From assembly GCF_007746795.1 (NCBI RefSeq), contig NZ_CP036343.1, positions 6,051,357 to 6,115,356 on the forward strand: a DNA stretch of 64,000 bases. Reading direction: 5' to 3'. A program made the position numbers and the translations under genes. Each line of letters opens with the position of its first letter. The first letter of the stretch is position 1. The stretch comes from Gimesia algae (lineage in GTDB: Bacteria > Planctomycetota > Planctomycetia > Planctomycetales > Planctomycetaceae). The notes beneath the pieces were generated by a model. That model was given only the letters and a program-made list of their open reading frames with translations, had not been told where the DNA came from and made no database searches. Below, piece after piece: positions 12,767 through 47,039 of this stretch.

Positions 12767-12773
12767 GTACTTC

Positions 12774-12867
12774 AGACTGTGTCCAGTTTTACTGTAGCGT
12801 CTCCAGGGCCATTTGAACCGAGTATAATGGATTGAGAGATGCTATGATTAAATGTGATCCGTTCTAG
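12774..12867 (+). repeat. 94-bp palindromic repeat, copy A
   Basis: One of five copies in the window, all exactly 94 bases, from AGACTGTGTCC to the terminal CTAG. Internal arms TAGCGTCTC (12795-12803) and GAGATGCTA (12836-12844) pair with one G-T. It begins 8 bases after the lipoprotein stop codon, so it could also end that transcript. Confidence 0.85.
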
Positions 12868-13032
12868 AAGCAACAACTGAATTCAGTATTACCTTAGTCC
12901 CTCTGTCCCGGTTTCCGGCAGGGGGATTTTTTCATATAACACTGGAAAGTACTGAACCTTTCCTGTAAAAAGGTCCTCACTAAGGTACAGATAAGGCAGC
13001 TCGCTCTCAATATTTTGCGTGAGGTTAATTTG

Positions 13033-13458
13033 ATGACAATATCGGTGCAGTGTGAGGAATGTTTTCAAAGTTATAAGGTCAAAGATGAACGCGCAGGACA
13101 GACCCTGAAGTGCAAATCGTGTGGCAGCAAAATTCGCGTTCCCGCTGTGGAAGAAGAATTCGAAGACCTGTCCGCCGATTATGGGGAGCCGATTGCCCAG
13201 CCTCGCAAGAAAAAAGCGGTCAAAGCAAAAAAGAAAAAGTCATCCTCCAGAAAATCGCTCAACATCTCGGCAGGAGGCATCGTCAAAAAAACCTTTGGCG
13301 TACTGTCGATGGCGTTAGGCGTAGCGATGCTGGGTGGAGCGATCTATATGTTTTTCGCCGGAGATGAACCCAACGGGAAGAGATCCCGACCTGTCGCAGG
13401 ACTGCTCATGGCATCGGTCTTTATGGGTGTCGGAAAAAAATGGATGTTCGATGAATAA
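13033..13458 (+). CDS. Small zinc-ribbon membrane protein
   Basis: A 141-aa protein in three parts: an N-terminal zinc ribbon of the MJ0042 type (CEEC near residue 7 and CKSC near residue 29), a lysine/serine-rich basic linker (~60-85), and a C-terminal pair of hydrophobic segments (GVLSMALGVAMLGGAIYMFF, then GLLMASVFMGVG). ATG at 13033 has GAGG eight bases before it, so upstream TTG codons are not needed. Such ribbon-plus-membrane proteins are common in planctomycetes; no function is known. The next gene is convergent, 9 bases away. Confidence 0.7.
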   Translation: MTISVQCEECFQSYKVKDERAGQTLKCKSCGSKIRVPAVEEEFEDLSADYGEPIAQPRKKKAVKAKKKKSSSRKSLNISAGGIVKKTFGVLSMALGVAMLGGAIYMFFAGDEPNGKRSRPVAGLLMASVFMGVGKKWMFDE

Positions 13459-13467
13459 GACAGGCAG

Positions 13468-13956
13468 TCAACGCTCCCTGGCATCCACTCCAAATTCTTC
13501 GACGCGACCATTCACAAAGGCAGCCAGGTTCTCGGCATCATCGGTGCCGATGCGTAAAGTGCCGCGTTTCATCTGAATGGCCACACAGTCGCGGCCCCAG
13601 AGATTCCAGACCCAGCCTCCGCGCGGGCTCAGATGAATTCCCCAGCCTTCCATGAAAGTGGTCCGATCCACGTCGGCACGGAGGATCTCCTCATACAATA
13701 CACTGCGCTGAAACAGGGGGAGCGGGCCGAACGAAATCCGCAGGCGATCGATTTCATCAGCCACCGTCAGATGATGAAAGCCTGTCGCTACAATTAACAT
13801 CACCAGCCCCACCATCACGAAGATCAGACTCAGAGTTGATTGTGGCGGTATTGTCCGCACAAACCAGGCAATCACAAAAAACGCAATCGCCAGCCCGTAC
13901 AAAATCAAACAGAGCGGTCCCCGTTGGCGATGATAATACAATGAAAGGCTGGTCAT
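13468..13956 (-). CDS. Membrane protein of unknown function
   Basis: A 162-aa protein with two hydrophobic segments near the N-terminus (GPLCLILYGLAIAFFVIAW and LSLIFVMVGLVMLIVATGF). A soluble C-terminal part (~70-162) looks beta-rich: IDRLRISFGPLPLFQRSVLYEEI, then GWGIHLSPRGGWVWNLWG, then VAIQMKRGTLRIGTDDAENLAAFV. The pattern resembles bacterial PH-like membrane proteins, where a short hydrophobic hairpin precedes a PH fold, but this is only an impression. It is not clearly linked to any neighbour. Confidence 0.55.
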   Translation of the reverse strand: MTSLSLYYHRQRGPLCLILYGLAIAFFVIAWFVRTIPPQSTLSLIFVMVGLVMLIVATGFHHLTVADEIDRLRISFGPLPLFQRSVLYEEILRADVDRTTFMEGWGIHLSPRGGWVWNLWGRDCVAIQMKRGTLRIGTDDAENLAAFVNGRVEEFGVDARER

Positions 13957-14149
13957 GTCTGATTCTCAATCTCGTGGAATAACTGAATGATAGCATTATA
14001 TTCATTTCCACTGAATTTCGATATCCCCCACAACATGATCGGAACCACCAGCGTCAGCAAGGGAATCGCCCAATGCCCGCGAACCGTGCTTGAATCTTCT
14101 GATTATATAGAAATTATACTTTCAATCTGAGATCAGTTTTAAACCAGCC

Positions 14150-14695
14150 TCAGGGAAACTCAATATACTCGACGGGTACGCTGTCTGTCAGCCAGACCTG
14201 GTTCGGCGTCACAAAAAACTCCCAGCCTGCCTGATGCATTTCCAGTGCCCGGACCTGCAGTAACACCGGTCTGCCGCGTCTGCGACCGACGGCGATGCTG
14301 GTCTGCTCGTCCACGTGCAGATGCACATGATGCCGATTCATTTTTTTGAGCCCTTCCTGCGAAATGGGTTCGATGAATTTGTCGGGGGTGCCATGAAACA
14401 GGATTTCAGGGGGAACGGCTGTAGTATATCCCAGGTCGACGGAAATCGAATGCCCCTGGTTGGCACGAATGCGAGTTCCTTCTGCGTTGAAGGAAAACCG
14501 CTGTTTGTCATTGGACTGCACGACGGTGTCGAGTGTCGCGCGCGACATCCCCTTCCCCTGCTGAGACATCGCTGCCAGTAATACTTCGACATCGACCCAG
14601 CCTGAATCGTCCAGTGTGATCCCGACGGTTTCCGGCTGGTGCCTGAGAATCAGACTCAGGAATTTGCTTTTCTTTTTTAATTCTTTTTCGTTCAT
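14150..14695 (-). CDS. kptA: RNA 2'-phosphotransferase (Tpt1/KptA family)
   Basis: A 181-aa enzyme that moves an internal 2'-phosphate from RNA to NAD+, giving ADP-ribose 1'',2''-cyclic phosphate and nicotinamide. Family features: SKFLSLILRHQPE with R18-H19, WVDVEVLL, then the NAD-binding half with ILFHGT, HHVHLHVDEQTSIAVGRRRG and a V..A..M...G..F..T.N.VWLT end. It is the last gene of a five-gene unit of NAD synthesis and salvage genes, 48 bases after pncA. Co-location with NAD genes fits an enzyme that consumes NAD+ and releases nicotinamide, which pncA can recycle. Confidence 0.9.
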   Translation of the reverse strand: MNEKELKKKSKFLSLILRHQPETVGITLDDSGWVDVEVLLAAMSQQGKGMSRATLDTVVQSNDKQRFSFNAEGTRIRANQGHSISVDLGYTTAVPPEILFHGTPDKFIEPISQEGLKKMNRHHVHLHVDEQTSIAVGRRRGRPVLLQVRALEMHQAGWEFFVTPNQVWLTDSVPVEYIEFP

Positions 14696-14743
14696 TTTTT
14701 CTTTTTTGTTCTTCGGATTTCAGATCCGATATTTTCATTTGAT

Positions 14744-15343
14744 TTATTCAATAATTTTTACGCCTGCGTGCTGCATTTCCTGGTAAGCGCGATGCACGTC
14801 CCCCGGACTGAGATCAACGCCTCGACATCCCCGCTCGATCAAGCGGGTCTGGAATCCCAGTTTCACAGCATCCAGCGCCGTCCATTTCACACAATAATCA
14901 GCAGCCAGTCCCAGTACCGTAACGGACTGCACCCCCTGCTCTTGCAGATATTCACCCAGGCCGGTCGACTTCTGATGGCCGTTATCATAGAAGCCACTGT
15001 AACTGTCAATCAGCCGGTCTGTTCCCTTGGGAAAGATCCTATCAATCTGGCCCTGTTTCAAATCCGCATGAAATTCCGCGCCCCGCGTATCTTGCACACA
15101 ATGATCGGGCCAGAGAATCTGTTCCAGGCCCGCCAGGTCAATCTGCTCTCCGATCTCTCGATCGGGATGCTGACTGGCAAAACTCAAATGATCGGCGGGA
15201 TGCCAGTCCTGGGTCGCTACGACCAGATCGAACTCCGATATCAACTCATTGGCGACCGGAACCACCTGATCCCCCTCGGGAACCGCCAGCGAACCGCCGG
15301 GCATAAAGTCATATTGCAGGTCCACCAGAATTAATGCATTCAT
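14744..15343 (-). CDS. pncA: Nicotinamidase
   Basis: A 199-aa isochorismatase-fold amidase converting nicotinamide to nicotinate. The catalytic triad is visible: D8 (LVDLQYDF), K106 (IFPKGTD) and C151 (GLAADYCVKWT). The metal-site region DWHPADHLSF and the conserved WPDHCVQDTRGAEF are present. It sits between nrtR and kptA, 12 bases after nrtR, as part of the NAD salvage unit; its product feeds the nicotinate phosphoribosyltransferase encoded at the head of the same unit. Confidence 0.94.
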   Translation of the reverse strand: MNALILVDLQYDFMPGGSLAVPEGDQVVPVANELISEFDLVVATQDWHPADHLSFASQHPDREIGEQIDLAGLEQILWPDHCVQDTRGAEFHADLKQGQIDRIFPKGTDRLIDSYSGFYDNGHQKSTGLGEYLQEQGVQSVTVLGLAADYCVKWTALDAVKLGFQTRLIERGCRGVDLSPGDVHRAYQEMQHAGVKIIE

Positions 15344-15355
15344 TGTCTCTCTTTC

Positions 15356-16045
15356 CTAAATCTCAAAATGAAAGCCCTGTTTTGTCAGGCGTTTGTATTT
15401 GCGATGATCGAATTTGTAGAGTCGGGCGGCTCGATGTGCCACATCCGTCTCCACTTCATCCAGTTCGATCAGAATTCCCATGCTGAGAATCTTTTTCCGG
15501 AAATTGCGCTTGTCAAGCTGACGATCCAGGATGACTTCATACAGATGTTGTATCTGACGCAGTGTAAACTTGGGTGGCAGCAGTTCGAAACCAATCGGCT
15601 GGTAGCGGACTTTGCCCCGCAGGCGTTCGTGCGCCGTTTCTAAAATCATCGGGTGGTCAAAGGCGAGTGTGGGCACATCATCCACGGCGAACCAGGCGGC
15701 GTTGCGAGCATCTGTAGCTGCCTGGACGCGGTGATCGGAAAGATTCACCAGCGCATAATAGGCAACCGTAACGACCCGTTCACGCGGATCACGGTCCACA
15801 TCCCCGATCGTATAAAGCTGCTCTAGAAAAACGTTTTCGATTCCCGTCTCTTCCTGCAGTTCCCGGCGGGCGGCCTCTTCCAGCGATTCTTCCAACCGAA
15901 CAAAGCCTCCCGGCAAGGCCCAGTCTCCTTCAAAGGGAGGCAGGTCACGCTGAATCAACAGCACCTGCAGATCGTCTTCGTCCAGGCCGAACACGACACA
16001 GTCGACGGTTAAAGCGGCCCGGGGATATTCATAACTAAATTTCAT
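15356..16045 (-). CDS. nrtR: NrtR-type regulator: Nudix domain plus winged helix
   Basis: A 229-aa protein with an N-terminal Nudix domain (residues ~8-140) and a C-terminal winged-helix part (~150-229, ending [14 protein letters not shown]). This is the architecture of NrtR, the ADP-ribose-sensing repressor of NAD metabolism. The Nudix box GX5EX7REXXEEXGI is fully intact ([24 protein letters not shown], split here only for naming), so hydrolase activity may remain, unlike NrtR proteins that have lost it. It lies within the NAD operon, 10 bases after nadE. Confidence 0.88.
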
Positions 16046-16055
16046 TGCCTGTCCT

Positions 16056-18056
16056 TCAGTTTAAACTTTCTTCGTCAACAAACTCGCGCAGTTCTTCCAG
16101 TTCCCGCTGATAGCTGCCTGAGAGAATCGGAAAACGACACCAGGTTTTGGGGTCCAGATTTTCATCGTCCAGATGAAATGAGGGTGCATAGCGTTCGCGC
16201 TTCCATTGATTGCGTGACCAGAGTTGAAAGAAGCGAGTGATCCAGGCAGACAGCTGCGCTGGCTGATAGTCCGAAAACTGAGTTCGCGCCAGCCGATACA
16301 GATCAACGGGACCATGTTTATCCCTGATGGCGGCCCGTTCGATCCAGTCCAGCAGCTCATAAGGCATGAGATCGGTTTCATCCGTCTGGTGGGATGCTTC
16401 AGGACGCAGTTCAGCAGTCGGCTCCTGTTGGTTGACCAGTTTCAGAATTGGCAGATTCTCTGCTCCTGCTGGTCCTGAATTTTCCATCCAGAGCAACCAG
16501 TGTCTTAAGAATGCTTTATCAATTCCGGAAATGGGGGAAAGTCCGCCACAGGTATCTCCGTCCATTGTCGTATAGCCGACCGCGGCTTCAGAACGGTTGC
16601 TGGTCGCCAGCAGAAGCGCATTCCGTAAATTGGCGATCATCCAGACCCCTGGTGCACGCACCCGCGCCTGTATGTTCTGCAGCGCAATATCGTCTGAATC
16701 CCAGTTCAATTCGCGGTCCAGCGCATTGGAGACAAGACCGACATAATCCTGTACGATTGAATCGACATCCAGTTTGAGATAGTCAGCCCCTATGGCTTCG
16801 GCAAGTTTTGCTGCCGCCTGTTTAGTGGTTTCAGAACTGTTACGAGTTGACTGATACACGCACGTCAGTAACCGGGACACCAGGTCCTGTACTGCCTTTG
16901 CCTGGGTGAGATCAGAAACGTGAGATAACTTCGACTGGAAGGCTTGAAGCCCCAGTTCAGCCACTCCCAGTTTCACCAGCAACCAGACCAGTGTCGCCAC
17001 GGCAGAAGAATCGGCTCCCCCACTCAGAGAAACCACAAAGCCCTGAGAGCGACTTTTACGTAGATAATCAAACAAGCCCAGGGCGACTGCCCGGGAAAAC
17101 TCTTCTGCTTTCACCGCTGGAGAAGTTTCCCAGCCTTCTGCTGACTGTGACAAAGGTTTTGGATCAATCTCCGGGAAATGAAACGATGCGACGACCCGGC
17201 TTTCGCTCTGCCCGAGTTGATCTGGTTGAAAACTCATCAGGCGGGCACGGTTCATACGGTTCAGATCAATGTCAATCACAGTGGACGTGACGACCACATC
17301 TTGAAATGAGAGCCTGGGACCTTCAGCCAGCAAAGCGCCATTACTGGCGATTAAAGCCGCTCCATCATAAATGATGCGTCCGGCTTCGTTGCCCAGTAAA
17401 TTGGAATAGATGTAGCTGACACCATAGGCACGTGAGCTTTCCAGTACGAGACGACGCCGTATTTCCTGCTTTCCAAAAGCAAAGTGGCTGGCGCTGGGAT
17501 TCAAAATCAGATCGACGGCCGCCTGTGATAAGGCATGTCCCGGCCGACGGGCGGCCCAGGCATCTTCACAGATTTCAAATCCGATTCGGATTCCGCCACA
17601 TTCAAAAATCAGATTTCCGATTGGATATAATTGGCCTTCAATTTCAATCTGGCTCACATGCGTTGAATTCCAGGCCTTGAACCAGCGTGGTTCGTAATGG
17701 ATTCCGTCTCCTGCCAGATGATTCTTAGCCACAAAACCTAATATCTGTTGATTCGCAATCAGGCAGGCACAGTTATAGAGCCCGCCCCCATGCAGCAGCG
17801 GAAGTCCCACAGAAACTGCAATTCCTTCCGTAAACGGCAGCAGTTCCTGCAGCGCGCGGATTGCCCTCTGTTGAATATCCGGTGAAAAGAAAGCATCTTC
17901 ACAACCATAGCCGGTGATACATAATTCCGGCAGACAGATCAGGCTCGCCCCCTGTTCGCGCGCTGTGGAGATGGCCGCCTGAATGTTCTGCATGTTGCCT
18001 GCCCACTCCAGCGGCGTCTGGTTAAGTGCAACGGCGGCGACCTGAATCAGTTGCAT
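16056..18056 (-). CDS. nadE: Glutamine-dependent NAD+ synthetase
   Basis: A 666-aa two-domain enzyme that amidates nicotinate adenine dinucleotide to NAD+. The N-terminal ~280 residues form a nitrilase-fold glutaminase with the catalytic set E in [15 protein letters not shown] in VAKNHLAG and C in FEICEDAW. The C-terminal synthetase domain has the ATP-pyrophosphatase loop [10 protein letters not shown] (~345) and the conserved [19 protein letters not shown]. It is full length and lies 50 bases after pncB in the same unit. Confidence 0.95.
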
Positions 18057-18106
18057 GACCGTTTACCTCCCTTTATTCTTTTGGCGATTTTTGGTTTACA
18101 ATTCTG

Positions 18107-19582
18107 TTACATCGGATGCGGATGCCGGGCTCTGAGTATTTCCGCTGTTTTAAATTCATGCAGTTCCTGTTCAAGTCCCACGGGGTATTCATGTGGAGTC
18201 GTATGACGGCGAACACTCGTATGGAACTGTGACAGTTGCTGTTGCACACGCTGCCGAATCTGAGTCAGTGTTTCACATTCCTTCACAATCTGTCCCGCTC
18301 TGACAACCGGTATCAGCAGGTCTTTTGCCTCGAGATCCCGACTGAGCAGACGACGCCGCGTCGGATCCAGAGGGTCTACCACAATATCACTGACAGGCTG
18401 TGGATTTAACTCATCATAGATCATATCTGCCATCGCACCTTCCGAATTGAAGAAGCGGCGTACCTGCAGGATGCCCGGAGTGGATGTTTTAATGGCCTGT
18501 TCAGACAATTTGAGTTTACGTTCCCAATGACCGGTTTCATTCTGAATCGCCCCGAGCTTGTAAACTCCCCCCAGTGCCGGTTGGTCGTAGGCGGTCACCA
18601 GTTTTGTTCCCACGCCCCAGACAGCAATGGTTGCTCCCTGTGTTTTGAGACTGGTGATGATCCCTTCATCCAGATCATTGCTGGCGACGATAGCGACGTT
18701 TGTTAATCCGGCTTCATCCAGCAACTGCCGCGCTTCTATACTCAGATAGGCCAAATCCCCGGAATCCAGTCGAATTCCTACCATTTCATGTCCCGATTTT
18801 CGCAACTGGAGCCCGACTTGAATCGCATTGCGAACGCCATCCAAAGTGTCATAGGTGTCTACCAGAAAGACACAGTTATTCGGCATGGCATCGGCATATT
18901 CTTCAAACGCAGCCAGCTCATCGTCGAACGACATGACCCAGCTGTGAGCGTGTGTGCCTTTCACAGGAATCTGAAACAGCTTTCCTGCCAGCACATTTGA
19001 CGTCGCGGCACAACCTCCCAGATAAGCGGCGCGGCTGGCAGCCAGACCGCCATCGATGCCCTGCGCACGTCTCAGGCCGAACTCCAGTACCGGGTCAGAT
19101 CCAGCTGCTGCACAGATCCGGGCTGATTTAGTGGCAATCAGGGACTGATAATTGACCAGATTCAGTAGCGCCGTTTCCAGTAACTGACACTGCAGAATGG
19201 GCCCTCTCACCCGGACCAGTGGTTCATGGGGAAAGACGACTGTCCCTTCGGGCACGGCATCGAGATCGCAGCGGAGTTCGAGCCGGGTCAGATATGACAA
19301 AAATTCAGCAGAAAAGAGGGACGCGCCATCATTCCCCTCCAGGCTGGCAAGATAATCAACATCACAGTCCGTGAATCGAAACTGTTTCAGGTAATCGAGC
19401 ACATACTCCAGCCCGGCTGCAATCGTGAATCCTCCCTGAAAGGGATTTTTACGAAAGAACAGATGAAACACCGCTTCCTGTTCTGAACGACCCGATTTCC
19501 AGTACCCCTGCGCCATTGTCAGCTGATACAGATCGGTCAGCAGGGCCAAAGGCGTCTGATAGATTTGTGATAATTTTGACAT
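18107..19582 (-). CDS. pncB: Nicotinate phosphoribosyltransferase
   Basis: A 491-aa enzyme joining nicotinate and PRPP to give nicotinate mononucleotide. Family features: [18 protein letters not shown] near the N-terminus, [47 protein letters not shown] and the phosphate-binding [13 protein letters not shown]. It is the first gene of pncB-nadE-nrtR-pncA-kptA. AAGGAG (19590-19595) gives a good ribosome binding site, and an inverted repeat a few bases further upstream is a candidate NrtR operator. Confidence 0.95.
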
Positions 19583-19597
19583 AACTCTTCTCCTTGT

Positions 19598-19616
19598 TAG
19601 TGTATTATCGACACTA
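19598..19616 (-). promoter_or_regulatory. Inverted repeat before pncB, candidate NrtR operator
   Basis: TAGTGT and ACACTA are perfect arms separated by 7 bases (ATTATCG), 15 bases upstream of the pncB start. NrtR regulators bind palindromic sites of about this size before NAD genes, and this operon encodes an NrtR-like protein. Binding is inferred. Confidence 0.6.
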
Positions 19617-19662
19617 TCTTTCGTAAAGTCAAGCGGCGTTTTATAGTTTCTTCCCTTTTGTT

Positions 19663-19756
19663 AGACAGTGTCCGGTTTCACTGTAGCGTCTCCAGGGCCA
19701 TTTGGAGCGAGTATCATAGATTGAGAGACGCTATGGTTAAATGTGATGCGCTCTAG
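19663..19756 (+). repeat. 94-bp palindromic repeat, copy B
   Basis: Same 94-base unit, starting AGACAGTGTCCGG and ending CTAG. The arms TAGCGTCTC and GAGACGCTA are both perfect. The insertion sequence begins only two bases after its end. Confidence 0.88.
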
Positions 19757-19900
19757 CTAGTGTCTGACCCGAAAGCGTTTTGGTTCGTAAATAATAGCGT
19801 GAAATTGTGAGAACGCTCCTCGAAGATGAGGCATTGATCCGTATTACTTGTTGAAAAGACAGTTAAAACGGAATCAACACGTTCAATCTTCGAGGAGCCA

Positions 19901-21377
19901 ATGATGCGAAAATCATACTCGAATCAGCTGCGACTGGACAGCGTTCCGATCGAACAGGTGGAGTTAAATCTGGAATCGCGGGATCGCATCGTTCCCATTC
20001 TTCGCGCTCTGCAGTTCCTGTATTCGGACCGCAGGCTTGTCGATGACATTCTGCAGTGGATCGCCGCCGACGTTAACGGTGACAGTCGCACCGACACAGG
20101 TCGAACGGGGATGGAATACTGGCATATCTGTGTGCTGGCAGCCGTGCGACTGGGTTGCAACTTCACCTACGATCAATTGCAGGACCTTGCTGAAAATCAC
20201 CGCAAGCTGCGCGCCGTCATGGGAGTCGGCGACTGCGATGACAGGCCCTTCAAATGGCGAACCATCCGCAACAACATTCGACTCCTGCGACCGGAAACCA
20301 TCGCACGCATCAACCAGGCCATCGTCAGTGCAGGACACTCGTTTGATCCCACTGCGATCGAAAAGGTCCGCGCCGATTCGTTCGTGATGGAAACGAACAT
20401 TCATTATCCCACGGAAAGCAGTTTGCTGTACGACGGGCTGCGGAAAATCATTCCTCAGTGCGTGAGGCTGGCCGAAGCACATGGCGTGAACGGATGGCGT
20501 GAACGGATGGCGTCAGTATGCTCACCTCTTGAAAAAAATCAAACAACTCAATCGAGACATCAATCGCATCGCGACAAAGAAAGGCCCCCGCTACAAAAAG
20601 CGGCTCCAGCCGCTTTACCGCGAACTCCTGCAGAAAGCGGACATCTTGACGCAGCGTGCGCGCGACCTCTGCCTGGTCACGGGCCAGCGATTACCGGAGA
20701 TCGCCGACCTGTTCGGGCCGAACACGCTGCAGGCGTTGATCCTACGCACAGAACGCGTCGCGGACACGACCCGGCGACGTATCATCCACGGCGAAGCAGT
20801 TGCCAACAGCGACAAGCTCTTCAGTATTTTCGAGCCGCACACTCAGCTTTACAAACGTGGCAAAGCCGGTCAGCCGATGCAGTTTGGTCGACAGGTTCTG
20901 GTATTCGAAGATGCGGCTGGCTTCATTGTGCGCGCCGTTTTGATGAAACGCGATGAAGGCGACAAACAAGTGGCAGTCCGTGAAACGAAGTCTTTGCAAA
21001 ATGACTTTCAAAACGGTGTGAAGCGTCTGTCGTTCGACCGTGGATTTCATTCGCCCGACAACCAGAGAGAATTGTCTGAGCTTGTCGATCATCTGTGTCT
21101 TCCCAGAACCGGCGTCAAGCAGTCGGCGGTTCAACTGGTCCAGGCCGATGACGAGTTTCGATCGGCTCAGCAGAATCATTCGGGAGTGGAATCAATGATC
21201 GGAGCGTTGCAGAGCGGGAACGCGATGAAGCGATGTCGCGACCGTTCGGAGATCGGTTTTGAACGCTACATGCAACTGGGTATTCTGGGGCGAAACCTGC
21301 ACACGCTCGGTCGGATGCTCATCGCCCGGGAGAACCAAAACGCGGCCGCCGCTCACAGTCGCCGCAAAGCGGCCTGA
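19901..21377 (+). pseudogene. Transposase, frameshifted by a 13-bp tandem duplication
   Basis: The N-terminal part (from 19901) reads in one frame to about 20495 and the rest (to 21377) in another. Removing one copy of a 13-base tandem repeat at 20483-20508 joins them into a 487-aa protein, across the junction as AHGVNGWRQYAHLL. The N-terminus (SVPIEQVELNLESRDRIVPILRALQ) resembles ISNCY-family transposases of planctomycetes; the second half has DTTRRRIIHGEAVANSDKLFSIFEPHTQLYKRGKAG and a late conserved glutamate in QNHSGVESMIGALQSGNAMKRC, consistent with a DDE-type enzyme. As read, it should be inactive. Confidence 0.8.
20483..20508 (+). repeat. 13-bp tandem duplication inside the transposase
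   Basis: GGCGTGAACGGAT occurs twice in direct succession (20483-20495, 20496-20508). The 13-base gain shifts the reading frame and splits the transposase. It looks like a replication-slippage event. Confidence 0.95.
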
Positions 21378-21840
21378 GACAGTCGCGATCCATACGAGAG
21401 AGCAAAGCCAGGGAAGAGCGTACGCGCTGTAGTGCCAGATAAAATCGAAATCCCGGCCAAAATCACCCGAACGCAGCCAGCGGAGACCCGATATCAACAA
21501 TCTCCACGATCCACTACCATCGCGTTAACACATAAAATTCAGCACGAACCCACTTTCGGGACACCCACTAGCTAACCGTCGACGTTCAGCTAAATTCATT
21601 CACTTAAGCCGCAGCGCGCATTCAGAGCAGCGGATAACTGGATTGATGGTACCAAGCCCGAGATATAATGTTGCGTTATTTTCTCTGATTCCGCTATACT
21701 CCCTCACCGGCTGTTCTTCACCATGACCTAATGATCCATGGTGGTAATCAACACTATTTCCTTGAGATCAGCACTACTTATTGATTGTGGAGCCTCAGTA
21801 GTGATTAAAGGGCCTCTTCAATCATACTGGAGCGAATTGA

Positions 21841-22434: not shown

Positions 22435-22552
22435 AATCCGACCTTGGCTCCCTCACGACCGTTATTGTGTCAGGGCCGTCGCGCCACTACCGACAAGAGA
22501 TGGAGAACATCCATGGGATGATCGCTCATAAGCTTGTCGGAATTGATCGAGT

Positions 22553-23371: not shown

Positions 23372-23491
23372 CTGATGACCTTTTCGAGATTAGCAGTTAT
23401 GGCGAATTCTAATTTTTGTAAATCAGCATAAATCCAGAATAATAGAACTTTAAAAGCCAGTCAGATGACTTTTCTCACAACGACCATTGTA

Positions 23492-25129: not shown

Positions 25130-25130
25130 T

Positions 25131-25922: not shown

Positions 25923-25929
25923 CAGCAGG

Positions 25930-27051: not shown

Positions 27052-27586
27052 ACTGGTGCGTGTACATCCTGTTAAATGGTTAAGCGTAATACATCAGAAT
27101 TACGCATTCAATCTGTCTATTTCAGCTGCTCTAAGTTCAATCGTGCCGGAAGTATAGTTGAATCAGAGAAAATGACGCAACCTTAATTCCTGCTGTCGGA
27201 TCATCATACAATCCCAGGAAAAAGCACTTGAAAACTCATGCAAAATGAATGCTATTAGTGATATTTCCCATGAATATTGTGATTTTGAGGGACAGAGTTT
27301 TAAGTAACAGGCTAGTGGAGTGTCATTTTTAAAATTTGGGTTGATAGATATCACGAGAGTGCGACAACGGAGCACGTAAACAACACCTCCCAACCCTCAA
27401 TTTGTAGCTTGACAAAGCACTAGACTGTGTCCAGTTTTACTGTAGCATCTCCAAGGCCATTTAGGCCGAGTATAATTGATTGAGAGACGCTATGGTTAAA
27501 TGTGTTGCACTCTAGCCAGTGGATTGGGTTCCTGCTCCTTCGCTGACTGACTTCGAGAATTTTCTCCAGCAAAACAGATATTTTCG
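27052..27586. other. 535-bp gap between wecB and a methyltransferase remnant
   Basis: It contains repeat copy C (27422-27515) and otherwise no recognisable gene or clear hairpin. The sequence is AT-rich. The divergent ends of wecB and the pseudogene lie on its two sides. Confidence 0.4.
27422..27515 (+). repeat. 94-bp palindromic repeat, copy C
   Basis: Same 94-base unit. It begins AGACTGTGTCC and ends CTAG, with one change in the left arm (TAGCATCTC) against an unchanged right arm GAGACGCTA. It lies 71 bases before a degraded gene. Confidence 0.85.
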
Positions 27587-28020
27587 TTGTGGAGTTCTCT
27601 AAAAAACGCTTATGAGATTTTTCTCCTGAAAGAATTCGATGAAGAGAGCGTCGTTTGTCGCATTTCTAATTTCGTTCGGATCTGGTCTAAACCTGAGGAC
27701 TTTTACAAGCATTCTCAGATGTCAGGCTGGAACTGGTTCATCTCCCAGGAGCTTGTACAGCATAAATATATTACTGGAAGTATCCTGTATTCAATGATGC
27801 AAATGTTCCAACCAAATCATATCATTGAAATCGGCAGTGAGGATTCGACAATGATGGGTCTCGAAGCAATGAATCATTAATAATCACGGTGACTATACCT
27901 GCATCGAGCCTGATCGACAGTCCGATTCAATTCTTCGACCTGCACACCGTTGGTAAACTCTCTTCTGGCAACATACTGTTTATTGACTCCACGACCCCGG
28001 AAGCGGAGAAATTGTATTGA
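27587..28020 (+). pseudogene. Degraded class I SAM methyltransferase gene
   Basis: The reading frame starting at 27587 (TTG; start uncertain) gives ITGSILYSMMQMFQPNHIIEIGS and stops at 27880. The family resemblance continues in other frames: GDYTCIEPDR from ~27888 and GNILFIDST from ~27967. These blocks match, in order, the motif I, acidic motif and 'NDILFIDSSH' region of a methyltransferase family found in glycan clusters. At least two frameshifts and an internal deletion (too short between blocks) are needed, so this is a remnant rather than a gene. Confidence 0.6.
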
Positions 28021-28026
28021 CTGTTG

Positions 28027-38044: not shown

Positions 38045-38052
38045 AACAACTC

Positions 38053-39015: not shown

Positions 39016-39105
39016 ACCGGATAACGATGTGCGGTAAACTATAAAGATGGTTCGCGTAAGGAACTCTGCATCCAGCCGAGGCTTGATACAATGACATCCG
39101 CATGA

Positions 39106-39987: not shown

Positions 39988-40736
39988 ATCGTGTTCCTGT
40001 GAGTTCTGATGCGATGCTGAAAATAAAGACACCACCTAGAATTGACGGTACCTGAATCATTTAGCTTGAATACAGTTTCTGACACTCATCTGCTTAAAAT
40101 CTTCTCAGATGTTCGTTTGGTATTGAAAATCGAAAAATAAAGCAACCTGATTTCTGAATTCAATGCAGGCATTACAGGAACAGTGGGGGCTTTCAGTATC
40201 CAAACCAATCGCTCAGGATAGCAGCAGCAACTTCAACTACCCCTGTTTGCCAGCAATATCTTGAACACATATGGCCAATAGTACACAAGGTCGCATCACA
40301 TTTAACCATAGCGTCTCTCAATATATGATACTCGCCCCAAGTCACCCTGGAGACGCTACAGTAAAATTGGACACAGTCTAGCCCTTACAGCGCAGACAGT
40401 GGACAGGAATGGGAAGAATGAAATTTCACTCTCGGAGTACAATAAAAAAGCCCAATATCGAAAATCCGATATCGAACATTAAAATAATAGTTTCTATAAC
40501 TTAAAAATGAGCTCCTTGAGGCGGTCTCAAGTCAAACTCCATTTGCATCGAATTCGCGAGGACCCCAAATCCGCAAAGCCTAAGCGGAATCGTATGCGAT
40601 TCGCTCTTGAGTATCAAAAGCTGCGCGATTCTGGTGAGGTCAAAACATGAGCGAAACTGGCTTGAATAAATTCCAAGGGTATAGGAGTGAGTTAAAAACT
40701 TCACGATCATTTTTGTGTCACTGTGGTGTAAACGAA
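39988..40736. other. 749-bp gap between rmlA and the SDR gene
   Basis: It holds repeat copy D (40286-40379) and otherwise nothing well supported. A short frame near 40501-40785 on the minus strand has no ribosome site or clear family. Confidence 0.45.
40286..40379 (-). repeat. 94-bp palindromic repeat, copy D (inverted)
   Basis: Same 94-base unit on the minus strand, starting at 40379 with AGACTGTGTCC. The arms TAGCGTCTC and GAGACGCTA are perfect, but the far end reads CTTG instead of CTAG, showing drift. It is oriented opposite to copies A, B, C and E and, with E, brackets the 40737-46583 gene block. Confidence 0.85.
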
Positions 40737-41471
40737 TCAATTTGACGCACCACCATCGGCACGAACATGTTGTCCCGTAACCCACGCCGCGTCGTCGCTG
40801 GCCAGGAACGAAACGACTGCGGCGATGTCATTGGGATGACCGAGTCGCTTGAACGGAGAAAGGTTGCGAAAAAACTCCTTCCGTTCTTCGTCACTTCCGG
40901 CAAACATGCCAGGCTCGGTGGCTCCGGGGCGGACACTGTTGACGGTGATCCCTCTCACCCCCAGTTCGTGCGACATCGAAACAAGCATCGCGTCAATTCC
41001 CGCCTTTGTCGCTGAATATGCGCCGGTTCCCGTACGAGGTCGCTCAGCCAATTGCGAAGAAACAAAAATCAGCCTTCCACCATCGCACAGTCGTCTTGCA
41101 GCTTCGCGAAGAGTCAAGAAGGCACCAACAAGATTAACGGAGACCAGTTTCTTAAAATCAACCAGCTCCACTTGCTCAATCGGGCCGCCACCGCCGATTC
41201 CCGCATTTGCCACCACGACATCCAAGCCGCCAAATTCGGCGGACGTGAATTCAAACATGTTTCTAATAGCATCTTCGTCCGTAATATCTGCCGATCGCGC
41301 AATCGCAACACCACCGGAATCAGTAATCTCCTGGACAACTTTTTCTGCGGTCTGACGGTCGTTTCCGTAGTGAACAACCACGCGATATCCGTCACGAGCC
41401 AATCGTTTACAAATCTCGCTGCCGATGCCACCAGATCCACCAGTGACAATTGCAGTTCGGTTACTGGACAT
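40737..41471 (-). CDS. Short-chain dehydrogenase/reductase
   Basis: A 244-aa classical SDR. The Rossmann motif is TGGSGGIG, NAGIGGGG follows, and the catalytic set is S in LIFVSSQLAERPR with YSATK downstream. VNSVRPGATEPGM and the C-terminal DAAWVTGQHVRADGG are typical FabG-like features. ATG at 41471 has GGAGGGA 7-13 bases upstream. It is 110 bases after the AhpD-like gene and probably in the same operon. Substrate unknown. Confidence 0.9.
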   Translation of the reverse strand: MSSNRTAIVTGGSGGIGSEICKRLARDGYRVVVHYGNDRQTAEKVVQEITDSGGVAIARSADITDEDAIRNMFEFTSAEFGGLDVVVANAGIGGGGPIEQVELVDFKKLVSVNLVGAFLTLREAARRLCDGGRLIFVSSQLAERPRTGTGAYSATKAGIDAMLVSMSHELGVRGITVNSVRPGATEPGMFAGSDEERKEFFRNLSPFKRLGHPNDIAAVVSFLASDDAAWVTGQHVRADGGASN

Positions 41472-41581
41472 GACTGGTCCCTCCAAATTCATAGTGAAGT
41501 TGCGCTCCGGAATTGTCGACCCAGCTACGCTTGAGCAACTCGCGAACCAGTGCAAAGATCGCGAGTCGCCATGCAGTGTGA

Positions 41582-41908
41582 CTACTGTTGAGCAGCCGTT
41601 TTGACTGCTTCGATGACGTCGGCCGGAACATTTCCGGCTTGCATAATCGACGTATGAGCCGCCATACAGTAAGTGCAACCATTCAGCCGGTTATTGGTCA
41701 TCGCAATAATCTGCTGCTCCGTCGTCGAGAGGCTGGTCTTGTTGTCGAAGATATCGGCGACCGTCTTGTACGCTTCCAGTAAGGCAGGCGACTCCGCCAT
41801 CACCGCATGCAGGTTGGGAACAAAGCCATAAGCCTGCTTGCTGGCCTCCAGCAGAGGCTTGCTGTCATCGCTGGCGGTCTCGATCGTGTGAACACTAAAG
41901 CTGGTCAT
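41582..41908 (-). CDS. Carboxymuconolactone decarboxylase/AhpD-like protein, probably truncated
   Basis: A 108-aa protein with the peroxidatic CxxC of the family in NGCTYCMAAHTSIM. The family usually runs to about 170-190 aa. Just past the TAG stop, another frame encodes ALVRELLKRSWVDN, which looks like the missing helical part. So the gene seems to have lost its C-terminus by a frameshift. Members act as alkylhydroperoxide reductase-like or decarboxylase-like proteins. An operator-like palindrome lies just upstream (41929-41944). Confidence 0.75.
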   Translation of the reverse strand: MTSFSVHTIETASDDSKPLLEASKQAYGFVPNLHAVMAESPALLEAYKTVADIFDNKTSLSTTEQQIIAMTNNRLNGCTYCMAAHTSIMQAGNVPADVIEAVKTAAQQ

Positions 41909-41928
41909 CGTTTTTCCCCTAATTCAAT

Positions 41929-41944
41929 TTGACCGATCAATCAA
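41929..41944 (-). promoter_or_regulatory. Operator-like palindrome before the AhpD-like gene
   Basis: TTGACCGATCAATCAA, a near-palindrome differing by one base from the core of the site before the TetR gene (TTGACCGATCAGTCAA at 42685-42700). It is 20 bases upstream of the AhpD-like start, where a repressor would block transcription. Confidence 0.6.
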
Positions 41945-42053
41945 AACTAATTCTAAAAAACAGGGGCCCATACCCCCTCCTGACTTACATGACGCACTCT
42001 CGATGGAACTCCTTACCGAGAATTCCACTCGCTTTGCTGATTCTCTCTTCTGC

Positions 42054-42635
42054 CTATGAAATCAACGCAATCGCCTGCTGAGCGACTTGTCGCAACGCCC
42101 TTTTTCCAAACGCCCCGCGACCCAGCACACGAATTCCCACGACCAAGGCAACGAGCGCCTTTGCTGTGGAGTGAGTGTCAACCGAGTCGGGAATGTCGCC
42201 AAGTTCTTTTCCGCGGTTGATTCGTCCTTCAAAAAAAGTGACGACCTCTTTAATTCCCTCTGATACGAGTTTTTTGACGTCATCGTCATGCGACGAATAT
42301 TCGAGCGCGGTGTTGAACAGCAAGCACCCCTTCTTGTCGGGATCGTCCAGCGTGGCCTTTACGAGCGAATCGAAAAACATCGTGATCGCTTCACGCGGAT
42401 CATCAAGCGTTTCCAGCATTCGTAATTTACTCGTCCTGCGATCCCCGCCGTACTTCAGCAGTCCACGCACGAAAAGGTCATGTTTTCCGTCAAATGCGTT
42501 GTAGAGGCTGCCTCGTTTGATTCCTGTCGCGTCCGTGATGTCAGAGATCGATGTCGCGGCGTATCCCTTCTCCCAGAAGACCTTCATCGCCTGTTCGATC
42601 ACATCCGACTCTTCAAATGATTTTTCCCACGGCAT
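42054..42635 (-). CDS. TetR-family transcriptional regulator
   Basis: A 193-aa repressor-type protein. The helix-turn-helix occupies ~10-55 (AMKVFWEKGYAATSISDITDATGIKRGSLYNAF), with the remainder the usual helical ligand and dimerisation domain, including CLLFNTALEYSSHD. ATG at 42635 is chosen for GGGAGAG upstream. Matching palindromes before this gene and before the AhpD/SDR genes suggest it represses both. The likely inducer is an electrophile or xenobiotic given those targets, but nothing in the sequence proves this. Confidence 0.88.
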   Translation of the reverse strand: MPWEKSFEESDVIEQAMKVFWEKGYAATSISDITDATGIKRGSLYNAFDGKHDLFVRGLLKYGGDRRTSKLRMLETLDDPREAITMFFDSLVKATLDDPDKKGCLLFNTALEYSSHDDDVKKLVSEGIKEVVTFFEGRINRGKELGDIPDSVDTHSTAKALVALVVGIRVLGRGAFGKRALRQVAQQAIALIS

Positions 42636-42680
42636 TGATTTCTCTCCCGAAGTTTGTTCCTTCTTCAGCAAAGAATAGAT

Positions 42681-42704
42681 AGTCTTGACCGATCAGTCAA
42701 GACT
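42681..42704 (-). promoter_or_regulatory. TetR-type operator before the regulator gene
   Basis: AGTCTTGAC and GTCAAGACT are perfect 9-base arms around CGATCA, with core TTGACCGATCAGTCAA. It lies 45 bases upstream of the TetR start, consistent with autoregulation. The same core occurs at 41929-41944. Confidence 0.65.
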
Positions 42705-42883
42705 CGGCTAGTTATTTCTTTCGGCCATTCGCTGCTTATTCTTGAGCCGCTCCACCGGAGACGCTGCGAACCGATCAAAAAAACAATCGAAGCCAGCTGC
42801 GAAGCAATATGTAAGGTTAAAACAGCGAAGCGTTCGCGTCCCGCCATCCAATCCCCTGCCTGGCCATTTCAATATCTCGTTAA

Positions 42884-45637
42884 CTACTCAAGCAAATCCG
42901 CTACCTGCTCGGCGGAGTACTTGAACGCTTTGAAGGTTGGAGCAGGACCTTTGTAGCGAACGACGACATCCCCATCAGGGGCAACTTCCCAGACCCTTTT
43001 ACCCACCGTATCGGTCAGAAGAGTATTGCCATTGGGCAAGCGGCGAGCGCCGCCTTGAAAGGGAGCGAAGAAATCATCGTTTTTCCAGAACCAGATTTGC
43101 CTGGCTTTAAAGGTTCCAGATTTGCCTACGACGTAACGTCGATCATCATCAACAGTGGGACTAATCTCATGGACGTTGCTAATACCCTTTAACTGTTCCT
43201 GGGTAACAGCGGCGGCCGCTCCACCAGTTCCTACTCTCGCTATGCCGCCCATGCCTGTATTGTTATTGAAGACCAAGATATTACCGGCGCCAGGAAGTCC
43301 TTCGTCAATCCAGTTGGCGTCGTGTTGATTTTGGAAGAGCCGGTCTTTCTCCGTGCCCCTCGCGTAGGCAGCGGGATTGCCGTATCGGAACAGCAGCTCT
43401 CCCCCTTTGCCCCTTCGACCGCCTGCAGAGCCCGCGGCTTGTTCGATGGTTGTGCTGTGATCGATCACCCAGATTTCGTTATAGATAAAGGAGCTAATAA
43501 CAATCTGATCCATGCCCGCGTGATAGTCGAGCGAATTCAAATGCTGCCGCACAGCGTTCATTGGCGCATAGCTTTCAGGGAAGTGGCCGTCGATCTTTTC
43601 CGGATGATCGGCGATGACACCGTAGTTGGCCGCTTTGGTATTTTGGTCCTGAATCATGTGGTCAATAAATCGCCAATACCAGACAATTTCATAGGAACTC
43701 TTTTTCAGGTCGGGTTTGATCTCCAGCACTCCATCTGACCAGACCGTTTTCCCTTTGCCGGCCGACCAACCAGCCGCCGCGGCTTCTTTCGAACTGATTT
43801 CTTCGTAGATTAAAATCAGGATATTGCCGTTGGACATGGGCAACATATCGTGGTGAAAGGTAATTTTGTTCCCGTTGATATCAATATTCTTGGCATTCAA
43901 TTCCCAGACTGCTTGTCCAGTTGTGTCTGTGATCTGCAGCGTGTCGGTGGCGGCTACTGGCTGCCCCGCAACATATCTTCTATCCCTGATGCCCATGCGC
44001 AGCAGGCCACCGGATTTCAGCAGATACGAGGTATGCCCCCCTCCAGTTAGATCGGTATCCCAGCGATGAACGACCTTTCCCTCAGCATCGAGAAGCATTG
44101 CGTAATTAACGACATCGGTAGCGAGTTCATCTGCCTGGTGCCAAAACAGGTAACCTTGATACAGCTCGTCAGGCAAAGCCAGATCGATCTTTTTCATAAC
44201 CGCATCACCGATGGACGCGATTGTTGTAGTTTTTTGTGGCTTTTGTGGCTGTCGAGGACGTGCTTCTGCGCCTGCTTCTGACACCTGTTTACGAAGTTCA
44301 CGGGCGACAGTGAGGTAGTAGTTTCTTGCGGTGGCATTGACCATGTTGTGAGCCAGATTTGTCAGAGCTTCGGCTTTAATCTGCCTGGCTTCGGCATTGT
44401 TTTTGTTGATTGCCAGCAGATGGTCGGCAAGCTGTGCGGCCCATTGGCTATCATTCTCGGCGAGCGCCTCTTTGGCCGATTCTAATAGCTTGTCTTTTCC
44501 TCCGGCCAGTTTCGCAACTCGTTCGGCTTCCGCCTTGGGTGGTAAGGGGAACAAATTGGATGCATTGCCGTCGAACCAGCCAAGATAATTGCTGAAGGTC
44601 TGACGGACGCCCCAGGCGGGATGTCCGTAGAATGGCTGCAAGTATTCACTGCTTGTCAGACGTTCGGGAAGCTGAACGTACTCGACCAACTCGTCGGGTG
44701 TCAGACCTTTATTAATGCCCTCGACCGTCTTGTCGTGAATGAATTGCACGGCGTCGCGGTAATCGGTCAGAACCTGTTTGACTTCGTCTGCACCGAGAAT
44801 CGGATTCGTGTGACCGCCGACCAAGGCAACCGCGTCCTTGTCGGCCATTCTGCCAAGACTTTCCGCCCACAGTCGGACGCTGCGGTTGGGAGTACCGCGA
44901 ATGGCATACAGATTTGGGAACGATCGATAGAAGCTGTCGCCGGCGAACAGGACTTTACCCGCTGGATACCAGACGGAAATTCCGTCGTTGGTTTCACCGG
45001 GCGATGATGTGAGTTCGAGTTTCACGCCGGCAACTTTGATGACCTTTCGATCCCCTTCGAGGAAATGAGTCGGCGAGGTTCCTTCGTTGGAAGAGAATAC
45101 TTCCCCGCCTCGTTTGGGATAGCGAACTGGCGCGACGCCGTTATTGATTCGTTCCTCCGGCGGCAACTTGAAGCCCGCCTGCCTTGCACCGCGCACATTT
45201 TGATACGTCAGTCCGCCTGCCTTCCAGGGCCGGGCTTCACTTCCGAAGTTGATGTGTGCCCAGATTTGCGGACGCTCAGAACCGAGAAATGCGGGTGCTC
45301 CGCCAGTGTGGTCCCCATGCGAGTGCGTATAGATGATCGCCTTGACCGGCTTATCGGTGATCTCGCGAAACTTCTTTGCGATCTTACTTGCCGCCTCACC
45401 CATCATCCCGGTATCAACGATGATGATGCCATCGTCGCCGACAATCATCGAAACGTTGGAAACGCTGTAGCCAACGGCAACGTAGACGTTGTCAGCCACC
45501 TGGAGTATCTGTTCCTTGAACTGCTCGCTCTGTTTCGTCAGCTTCTCCGTCGCAGAGTTCTCCTGCGCGATCGCTTGACTCGTACAGACAAGCAAAGCTG
45601 TCAAAAGGATGGTGGGAAACCTGCCAGGTTTTGACAT
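42884..45637 (-). CDS. Metallo-beta-lactamase/alkylsulfatase-like protein fused to an arylsulfotransferase-like propeller
   Basis: A 917-aa exported protein (signal LLTALLVCTSQAIAQ). Residues ~45-285 are a metallo-beta-lactamase fold with the metal motif HSHGDH (105-110), SSPGETNDGIS (~210-220), LFAGDSFYRSFPNLYAIRG and GGHTNP. Residues ~290-450 match the dimerisation helix region of alkyl sulfatases (PAWGVRQTFSNYLGWFDGNASN, then a TPR-like stretch). Where those enzymes have an SCP2 domain, residues ~485-917 instead look like an arylsulfotransferase/ASST-like beta-propeller (ITFHHDMLPMSNGNILIL, GRRLPNGNTLLTDT-type repeats). It could release or move sulfate from alkyl or aryl sulfates in the periplasm. 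It follows the MarR gene by 51 bases. Confidence 0.78.
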   Translation of the reverse strand: MSKPGRFPTILLTALLVCTSQAIAQENSATEKLTKQSEQFKEQILQVADNVYVAVGYSVSNVSMIVGDDGIIIVDTGMMGEAASKIAKKFREITDKPVKAIIYTHSHGDHTGGAPAFLGSERPQIWAHINFGSEARPWKAGGLTYQNVRGARQAGFKLPPEERINNGVAPVRYPKRGGEVFSSNEGTSPTHFLEGDRKVIKVAGVKLELTSSPGETNDGISVWYPAGKVLFAGDSFYRSFPNLYAIRGTPNRSVRLWAESLGRMADKDAVALVGGHTNPILGADEVKQVLTDYRDAVQFIHDKTVEGINKGLTPDELVEYVQLPERLTSSEYLQPFYGHPAWGVRQTFSNYLGWFDGNASNLFPLPPKAEAERVAKLAGGKDKLLESAKEALAENDSQWAAQLADHLLAINKNNAEARQIKAEALTNLAHNMVNATARNYYLTVARELRKQVSEAGAEARPRQPQKPQKTTTIASIGDAVMKKIDLALPDELYQGYLFWHQADELATDVVNYAMLLDAEGKVVHRWDTDLTGGGHTSYLLKSGGLLRMGIRDRRYVAGQPVAATDTLQITDTTGQAVWELNAKNIDINGNKITFHHDMLPMSNGNILILIYEEISSKEAAAAGWSAGKGKTVWSDGVLEIKPDLKKSSYEIVWYWRFIDHMIQDQNTKAANYGVIADHPEKIDGHFPESYAPMNAVRQHLNSLDYHAGMDQIVISSFIYNEIWVIDHSTTIEQAAGSAGGRRGKGGELLFRYGNPAAYARGTEKDRLFQNQHDANWIDEGLPGAGNILVFNNNTGMGGIARVGTGGAAAAVTQEQLKGISNVHEISPTVDDDRRYVVGKSGTFKARQIWFWKNDDFFAPFQGGARRLPNGNTLLTDTVGKRVWEVAPDGDVVVRYKGPAPTFKAFKYSAEQVADLLE

Positions 45638-45688
45638 TGTCAGCTCCTTTGGTTCACGGACAGACTGGCCCGTCGTTTACGTGGAAAG

Positions 45689-46132
45689 TTATCGGTGTTC
45701 CATTAAGTTCTTCTGCATTGTCCGCAGAACGTTGAGCGTTGCTTCCAGTTCCGATTTTTTGATACCCGTTAACGCCGTTTTCCGCAGATCATCCAGTAGT
45801 GGAAGAACATTCTGCAGTCTCTGTTCGCCACGACGAGTCAAACCGATCATCACGATGCGCGCGTCGTCAGCCGATGCATTCCGCTCGACAAATTGTTGTT
45901 CGACAAGTCGATCCAACTGCCGTTTGACCGTGGTCGGATCACGAATCATCAGTAACGCCAGATCGTTCATACTCAACGGCTCGCCGGCATCGGACAGAGT
46001 GATCAGAGTCTGCGTTTCCTCCGGCGAAAACGGCCAGCCGGCATCCTTCAGGACGGCGGCCATACCGGAACGAATCAGGTACGCGACGCGACCGATGGCA
46101 AACCCGGGCGAGGATTCGGAATCAAAGTGCAT
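45689..46132 (-). CDS. MarR-family transcriptional regulator
   Basis: A 147-aa winged-helix protein: GWPFSPEETQTLITLSDAGEPLSMNDLALLM then DPTTVKRQLDRLVEQQFVERNASADDARIVMIGLTRRGE, the recognition helix and wing. ATG at 46132 is chosen; longer readings add an unrelated proline-rich leader inside the DoxX gene. Its start lies 11 bases inside the end of DoxX, so translation is coupled. It probably controls its own DoxX-MarR-sulfatase-like unit. Confidence 0.8.
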   Translation of the reverse strand: MHFDSESSPGFAIGRVAYLIRSGMAAVLKDAGWPFSPEETQTLITLSDAGEPLSMNDLALLMIRDPTTVKRQLDRLVEQQFVERNASADDARIVMIGLTRRGEQRLQNVLPLLDDLRKTALTGIKKSELEATLNVLRTMQKNLMEHR

Positions 46133-46583
46133 GTTCGCCTCCGGCCAATTCGGTGGTCGCGATACTGGTCGGCCTGGCAAAGATCGGACGATACCAGTCA
46201 AAGTAGCAGTAGAGAAGGAATGCGCAGGCGGCAAAGTCGGGAAGCCCGATGACGAGGTATTTGTGAGCAAAAAACGTCACATACAACAGGATATTGAAGG
46301 CATAAGGCAGCGACATCAGAATTGCGAGAGGCGCGGTCCTCGGGAAAAACATCAGTCCGCCGGTGACCGTCTTGAATAAGCCAACCCATAAAATCAAATA
46401 GCCCGTCTTCTGAAGCGCGAGCATGAACTGGCCAACGTCATCCGGCGAATTACTGACTGGATAGCCGTTGATGGCAAGCCCAATTGTCATGATTCCTGTG
46501 CCAAACAGAAAGAGTGCGAAGAGTAGCCGCACCACCAGCGCGAAACGTGGTACTTGAACACTGTGTTGTTCCAGTGGAAGCAT
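46122..46583 (-). CDS. DoxX-like membrane protein
   Basis: A 153-aa protein with four predicted membrane helices (VVRLLFALFLFGTGIMTIGLA, MLALQKTGYLILWVGLFKTVTGG, APLAILMSLPYAFNILLYV, LPDFAACAFLLYCYFDW), the DoxX layout. The family occurs with oxidative-stress or respiratory proteins; no precise role is known. It is the first gene of the unit and is preceded by a weak inverted repeat AGGTAA/TTACCT at 46630-46662. Confidence 0.75.
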   Translation of the reverse strand: MLPLEQHSVQVPRFALVVRLLFALFLFGTGIMTIGLAINGYPVSNSPDDVGQFMLALQKTGYLILWVGLFKTVTGGLMFFPRTAPLAILMSLPYAFNILLYVTFFAHKYLVIGLPDFAACAFLLYCYFDWYRPIFARPTSIATTELAGGEHAL

Positions 46584-46945
46584 TTCAGTAGATCCGTATG
46601 AATTGAATTGGCACGTTTTCTCACCTGAGAGGTAAGCACGCGATGTAAGCGAAACTTTACCTGTATTCTACAGGCATCTAGCAGACCGTCAACATTCAAT
46701 TGCAAAAGTCGCGAAAATAATCCTGCGACACCTGGCTACTATTCTGAAATGATCCAGAAGCGGCCATTCGTTGGCACGGAAAGGTTCGCCCCGGATTCCG
46801 ACTCCGATAAAAGCAGGTGTATCGATTGCCCCTGAGAGCCAAAATAGCTGTCACACTCCAAAGTCCTCGTGTCGAACTCGCCGTAGACCTGGTGCTCAGG
46901 TCAGCCCTGAATCACGACACTTCCGAGAGTCGATCCGCTGCCCTT

Positions 46946-47039
46946 AGACTATGTCCAGTTTTACTGTAGCGTCTTCAGGGCCATTTAGACCGAGTATAAT
47001 AGATTGTGAGACGCTATGGTTAAATGTGATGCGCTCTAG
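46946..47039 (+). repeat. 94-bp palindromic repeat, copy E
   Basis: Same 94-base unit, AGACTATGTCC to CTAG. The left arm reads TAGCGTCTT, so its outermost base is changed, and the right arm GAGACGCTA is unchanged. With inverted copy D it brackets the six-gene block 40737-46583. Confidence 0.87.

Follow-up and report, generated by a model that had tools for sequence, protein, structure and literature searches.

The 64,000-nucleotide stretch analyzed here (positions 6,051,357 to 6,115,356 of contig NZ_CP036343.1 of the marine bacterium Gimesia algae, referred to below as the window) contains five copies of a palindromic repeat with a 92-nt unit, a family that we call F1. The genome of the window, G000, has a chromosome of 7,929,454 bases. 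A first-pass annotation, made from the letters alone, had reported five 94-base repeats and read them as a small mobile hairpin or a structured RNA; all five are present with the coordinates and strands that it gave, at lengths of 94 or 95 nt. The copies, and two features adjoining them, are as follows.

12773..12867, plus strand: F1 copy A; left trinucleotide CAG, not TAG; mini-hairpin ACTG-TGTC-CAGT intact at 12776-12787
19662..19756, plus strand: F1 copy B; mini-hairpin broken (ACAG/CGGT); an insertion sequence (IS) of the ISNCY family inserted at the TA of the right end
27421..27515, plus strand: F1 copy C; mini-hairpin intact (27424-27435); left TAG identical with the right-end TAG of a second repeat, F2
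40286..40380, minus strand: F1 copy D; right end CTTG; mini-hairpin broken (ACTG/CAAT)
46945..47039, plus strand: F1 copy E; mini-hairpin broken (ACTA/CAGT)
12242-12766: open reading frame (ORF) whose end lies 6 bases before the start of copy A
27311-27424: repeat F2, about 110 nt, abutting copy C with a TAG in common

The five copies agree with one another at 78 to 85 of 94 positions, and each of two core patterns of the family, searched with up to 3 mismatches, matched the window five times and 100 dinucleotide-shuffled versions not at all. The natural unit is 95 nt long from TAG to TAG, with a period of 92 nt. The 32-base arms that the annotation had described, with 22 paired positions and 6 G-T, hold for the genome consensus with a C placed in front (22/32 Watson-Crick, 6 G-T, and no A-C pairs); the majority of the five window copies gives 21, 7, and 0, and single window copies have 18 to 21 Watson-Crick, 5 to 8 G-T, and up to 2 A-C pairs.

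Judged by its ends, F1 is very probably a nonautonomous element of the IS630 family, a miniature inverted-repeat transposable element (MITE), since these ends agree with IS630 ends that flank pieces of transposase genes. Five such ends, from broken IS630-family elements of two Gimesia genomes and a second genus, match the F1 right end at 19, 20, 19, 22, and 19 of 24 positions beyond the TAG (0 of 2000 shuffles in each case) and the left end at 16, 14, 16, 15, and 13 of 24 (0 to 6 of 2000 shuffles); the parent-type end sequence is TAGAGCGCRTCACA. Distant relatives in other families of the class, L322 (TAGAGCGCATCC) and L323 (TAGAGCGKTTCCAA), have TAGAGCG-type repeats at both ends, and because this repeat is that of the F1 right end, the loci were scanned for inverted pairs of it, which led to L264. 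The scan gave eight pairs, from which L264 and L322 were used; five pairs with F1 copies (L005, L060 twice, L072, and L077) and one with the g19 relative (L197) were set aside. L264 is a 517-bp element at 2649093-2649609 of the Gimesia genome G008, bounded by a TAGAGCG-type inverted pair, in which the N-terminal part of a transposase (NF033545, E 3.4e-11) is followed only by the right end; it is an internally deleted element and a natural intermediate towards a MITE. In G012, L281 and L276 are 97% identical to L264 over 445 nt and have the same left end before an IS630 transposase that is broken off past mid-gene (L281, NF033545 2.1e-15 and Pfam DDE_3 5e-11). The second genus provides, in genome G102, an L264-type left end before an IS630 transposase (L270) and a right end after a transposase C terminus with the stretch LPPYSPDLNPIE (L261; NF033545 7.9e-23 and DDE_3 2e-19).

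The F1 family is mobile, as is clear from empty sites in sister species, a net insert of 92 nt, and tandem units that share a TAG. When the joined flanks of filled copies were aligned to sister species, with identities of 81 to 91% over the joined flanks, eight sites were filled in one species and empty in the other: L007 and L023, filled in G000 and empty in G008, and L199, L200, L201, L204, L209, and L211, filled in G014 and empty in G016. At L204, L209, and L211 the empty allele has a single TAG; at L199 it has TAA, as does G003 at that place; the clean empty allele of L007 also has TAA, and that of L023 is one base shorter, with TA before AGGA. The net insert is 93 nt at L023. Most empty alleles thus have one TA-containing site, with TAG at both ends once filled. 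Tandem F1 arrays of two or three units keep the 92-nt period, and at L066 an F2 copy has inserted within an F1 copy at an internal TAG. In the window, copy A is absent at the corresponding place of G008 and G012, where the exact empty site is not clean. Looking at guessed collinear positions instead of aligned flanks yielded few empty sites in G008 and none for ten G016 copies compared with guessed G014 windows.

Several observations weigh against a straightforward IS630-type origin with simple duplication of the TA. The left end matches IS630 ends only moderately. The NF033545 scores of the three transposase pieces (43, 57, and 81 bits), which are fragments, fall below the curated cutoff of 100, and none of the 19 IS630-family matches in G000 passes the family cutoff. 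The empty allele of L200 has TGT, and that of L201 has AAG, which is kept at the left of the filled site with TAG at the right. In 82 of 91 Gimesia copies the right TA is followed by G, despite the TAA at the clean empty sites L007 and L199. TA duplication at insertion is accordingly presumed, not proven, for F1. In the related G073 family, the right TA is followed by A in four copies, G in one, and T in one (n = 6), a variation that fits TA as the boundary. Of 50 G000 left ends with no right end listed for them, a part was inspected; the regions held F1 copies, some of them diverged, cut, or interrupted, and a longer element bounded by near-identical F1 ends was not found there.

The two ends of F1 differ in kind. 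From an alignment of 39 Gimesia copies, RNAalifold retains a single structure, a small left-end hairpin, which reads ACTG-TGTC-CAGT in most species and CCTG-TGTC-CAGG in a subfamily; it has 11 compensated cells in Gimesia, a count that shared descent inflates and that none of 500 shuffles reached. Compensatory change of this kind does not discriminate between RNA and DNA. Other genera have different left stems in a shifted register (ATCTT/AAGAT, ATCCT/AGGAT, and AGCAG/CTGCT), and single distant copies have AGTGCC/GGCACT, TCGAC/GTCGA, TAGAC/GTCTA, GTCCG/CGGAC, AGTGCG/CGCACT (in two genera), and GATCGT/ACGATC. With a hairpin defined as a perfect stem of at least 4 bp and a loop of 3 to 5, a stem of 4 to 6 bp stands at the left TAG in 12 of 16 left ends, compared with 0 of 12 right ends (Fisher, 7e-5) and 0 of 5 ends of the IS parents, with the reservation that several cases rest on a single copy, that shuffling of each end matched the observed stem in 5 to 192 of 2000 trials, and that some ends are related or have a stem in common (F1 with its CCTG form, F1b with F1c, and L328 with L330), which lowers the number of independent lineages. 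The four left ends without a hairpin are L322, L323, and L325, which keep a repeat-like left end, and L320, a G073-family copy; five of six further G073 copies have TAGAC-TAY-GTCTA, and the sixth is one stem base off. Only copies A and C have an intact left stem in the window.

The annotation had proposed searching the whole genome and related Gimesia genomes and had allowed that only five copies might exist or that all might stem from one recent duplication; the searches revealed many dispersed copies, and neither possibility held. With up to 3 mismatches, G000 has 219 left-end and 141 right-end matches and none for the patterns read backward, and at least one match was found in all 17 Gimesia genomes searched, G000 included, and in 1 of 42 genomes outside the genus. 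First-look candidates were most numerous in G000 (309), G008 (219), and G012 (215); the fourteen remaining Gimesia genomes had 7 to 62 each. The motif also occurred in 18 stretches of a sequence collection from which G000 was possibly left out, all of them from Gimesia or Planctomycetota, and there was no match in the plasmids, phages, and viral contigs searched. With one diverged copy and a covariance model as queries, relatives turned up in 27 of 297 genomes of the class, representing 14 of 155 genera, at an E value of ≤0.001. These E values are approximate, several genera are supported by one to three near-threshold matches each, and scoring was limited to 13 candidates per genome, so that copy counts from this survey are floors. 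The second genus (G034, G102, and G124) has elements of about 106 nt, with 57, 18, and 25 left-end matches, respectively, and further relatives occur in G029, G073, and others. In the titles and abstract openings covered by our literature search, which left out most subscription journals, no description of the family was found.

All 56 F1 copies checked in G000 lie outside predicted genes; 7 of them abut a stop codon exactly. In a larger set of 124 distinct copies with 300-nt flanks, assembled from search hits and retrieved regions and not a random sample (one, L320, belongs to a different genus), the left TAG coincides with the stop of an open frame of 95 or more codons in 21 (the other two frames give 2 and 2), and the right TAG does so for an opposite-strand frame in 22 (1 and 3). 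These 43 junctions, all with a TAG stop supplied by the element, fall in 40 of the 124 copies, about a third; three of these copies stand between the genes of a convergent pair. For comparison, stop codons account for 108 of the 1280 nongenic YTAR sites (about 8%) in 660 kb of Gimesia sequence, and for 48 of 659 in the YTAG/CTAR subset, by a crude gene caller of our own applied to 31 stretches. The share at stop codons is hence about four times expectation (binomial p of about 5e-14), with at least two pairs among these copies orthologous between sister species (L034/L035 and L053/L202). The sister allele has TAA where the filled one has TAG at L007 and L023 and also at L205 and L206, where the left flank alone could be aligned. 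Because the element begins with G after the TA on both strands, a copy inserted at the TA of a stop codon, whether TAA or TAG, yields TAG as the stop whichever way it is oriented, a possible reason for the frequent placement there; the excess may reflect target choice or survival.

The other half of the earlier interpretation, a structured RNA, is taken here as a 3' untranslated region element or terminator that would have been selected as a plus-strand hairpin and spread by copying. The consensus arms of F1 have six G-T and no A-C pairs, the plus-strand consensus folds at -34.2 kcal/mol (z -4.3) compared with -21.2 (z -1.9) for the minus strand, the G-U pairs of the inner helix are kept at the same places in another genus, and 40 of the 124 copies stand directly at stop codons; but those copies are split about evenly by orientation (21 left and 22 right), and the long arms, taken as a 34-pair structure in the 39 Gimesia copies, show 3 double changes compared with 3.1 in shuffles, with a covariation score reached by 489 of 500 shuffles. 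Single changes away from Watson-Crick pairs in 125 distinct copies gave 73 G-U and 84 A-C cells (18 and 19 distinct variants), so that G-U is no commoner than A-C, and plus-strand pairing is not visibly guarded after insertion. At the gathering threshold Rfam found only a tRNA in the window, and a permissive scan of 27250-27600 found nothing. With the long-arm tests negative and the copies without an Rfam match, we reject the structured RNA, which we consider very unlikely. The annotation's claim that the hairpin is kept as RNA on the plus strand is likewise unsupported, F1 is not REP-like for the reasons given below, and only the MITE half of the interpretation stands, upheld by the empty sites, the many dispersed copies, and the ends held in common with IS630-family elements. 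Absence of compensatory change, which the annotation had named as counting against its proposal, is what we found in the long arms and not in the short hairpin of the left arm, which it had not singled out.

Two other mobilizers were weighed against an IS630-type transposase. A tyrosine (HUH, Y1) transposase, for instance a RAYT, acting on single-stranded DNA, as for elements like the repetitive extragenic palindromic (REP) sequences or PATEs, would suit a palindrome with hundreds of copies, a hairpin beside the left boundary, and no clear target duplication, and Y1 transposases occur in 14 of 17 Gimesia genomes. A full F1 copy was, however, found at none of 30 Y1 loci (a left-half fragment stood at one); where Y1 genes of G000 and its relatives were compared, a different palindrome, AAGGTGTCAGGAACCTT-like, flanks them; G004, which is 99% complete, has F1 copies and no Y1 match; and no blocks of strand preference run along the G000 chromosome. 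F1 lies there on both strands (151 places, 70 of them plus; the best contrast was reached by 96 of 200 shuffles), in a test that drew on 100 listed places per end and not all 219 and 141. We regard this reading as highly improbable, and a mobilizing role of the ISNCY-family IS that abuts copy B as more remote still. That IS also uses TA, and its transposase is present at full length in the three most F1-rich genomes (G000, G008, and G012); yet its ends, GCTAGTGTCTGACCCG and GCTAGTGGGTGTCCCG, differ from those of F1, which IS630 ends fit much better, it has no match in G014 and G004, both with F1, and G009 has a 1.8-kb ISNCY match but a single F1 match.

The ISNCY-family IS itself (NF033593) occupies 19755-21575 of the window, inserted at the TA of the right end of copy B, so that the last G of that copy may belong to it. 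Its ends read TA-GCTAGTG...CACTAGC-TA; the window transposase is split over two reading frames, and the G000 copies at 2483384 and 7751064 each have an uninterrupted frame of 508 codons. L084 and L093 (G000 positions 7238455 and 2099253) are RAYT-type Y1 transposase genes flanked by palindromes of their own, AAGGTGTCAGGAACCTT, unrelated to F1; at L084 the palindrome is a perfect one of 52 bp. The sampled G000 loci have a G+C skew that is predominantly positive up to about 0.7 Mb and predominantly negative beyond, not the usual two halves, and that did not define a replication origin or terminus. A composite element between same-orientation F1 pairs about 2.5 kb apart was rejected, as the intervening stretches are dissimilar and have different ORFs. 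Also rejected as a parent was an IS, perhaps IS21-like, carrying a 568-codon gene found at 11 places in G000, with a longer frame at a twelfth; its ends, TGGAGATTGG...CCAATCTCCA, are unrelated to F1. An IS of G000, of about 2.56 kb (e.g., L289-L292), has the ends TGGAGATTGGCGTG...CACGCCAATCTCCA, is 99.9 to 100% identical among four copies compared, and is 95.8% identical to one in G014. The repeat F2, with many copies in several Gimesia genomes, is probably a second IS630-type MITE, as its ends resemble those of a different IS630 group (L259 and L260).

IS630-associated MITEs such as ERIC, NEMIS/Correia, RUP, and Nezha are linked to IS630-type transposases. F1 resembles them in being short, noncoding, extragenic, and present in many copies, with the ends of a transposon family and a TA-centered target, and differs in its unequal ends, of which the left is a lineage-specific hairpin, in its frequent exact placement at stop codons, and in its planctomycete host. 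With the IS630 family proper (NF033545; Pfam DDE_3) it shares terminal repeats (19 to 22 of 24 positions at the right and 13 to 16 at the left), whereas it is 92 nt long and codes for nothing, and IS ends have AGCG after the TAG on both sides and no hairpin. One paper lists ERIC, NEMIS/Correia, RUP, and Nezha as MITEs, defines a REP as a 20- to 40-bp palindrome that carries an unpaired tag (GTAG or CGTC) on one side, and reports REPs of both superfamilies, GTAG and CGTC, also from Planctomycetes (PMC3733652). By that account F1 is like REPs in being a dispersed extragenic palindrome of high copy number and unlike them in its 92-nt unit, its TAG on both sides, its absence from beside the Y1 genes examined, and its IS630-type ends.

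We suggest that an IS630-family (Tc1/mariner-like DDE) transposase, acting in trans, would bind both ends of F1 and excise it, and that the excised element would be joined to the TA within a preferred Y-TA-G site, duplicating the TA. At the left end, the AGCG of the repeat would have given way to a hairpin of 4 to 6 bp specific to each lineage, which, as a guess, may replace a sequence contact in the transposition complex or temper transposase binding at that end; once established, copies would decay without visible constraint on pairing. More tentatively, and less likely than not, F1 represents a class of IS630-derived elements found throughout the planctomycetes, with a left repeat that has lost its fixed sequence and is kept as a self-complementary hairpin of constant geometry and changing stem, a right repeat that remains intact, and stop codons as neutral docking sites. 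To our knowledge, such asymmetric end architecture has not been described for Tc1/mariner-type elements.

An unexplained repeat would thus be assigned to a named kind of element with an identifiable parent. The copies gathered here furnish a set of sequences for asking why a DDE-type mini-element should keep one end as a hairpin with a lineage-dependent stem and the other as a transposon repeat, and, as both ends of F1 give TAG after TA, they suggest a simple route by which such an element may come to reside harmlessly at the stop codons of its host.

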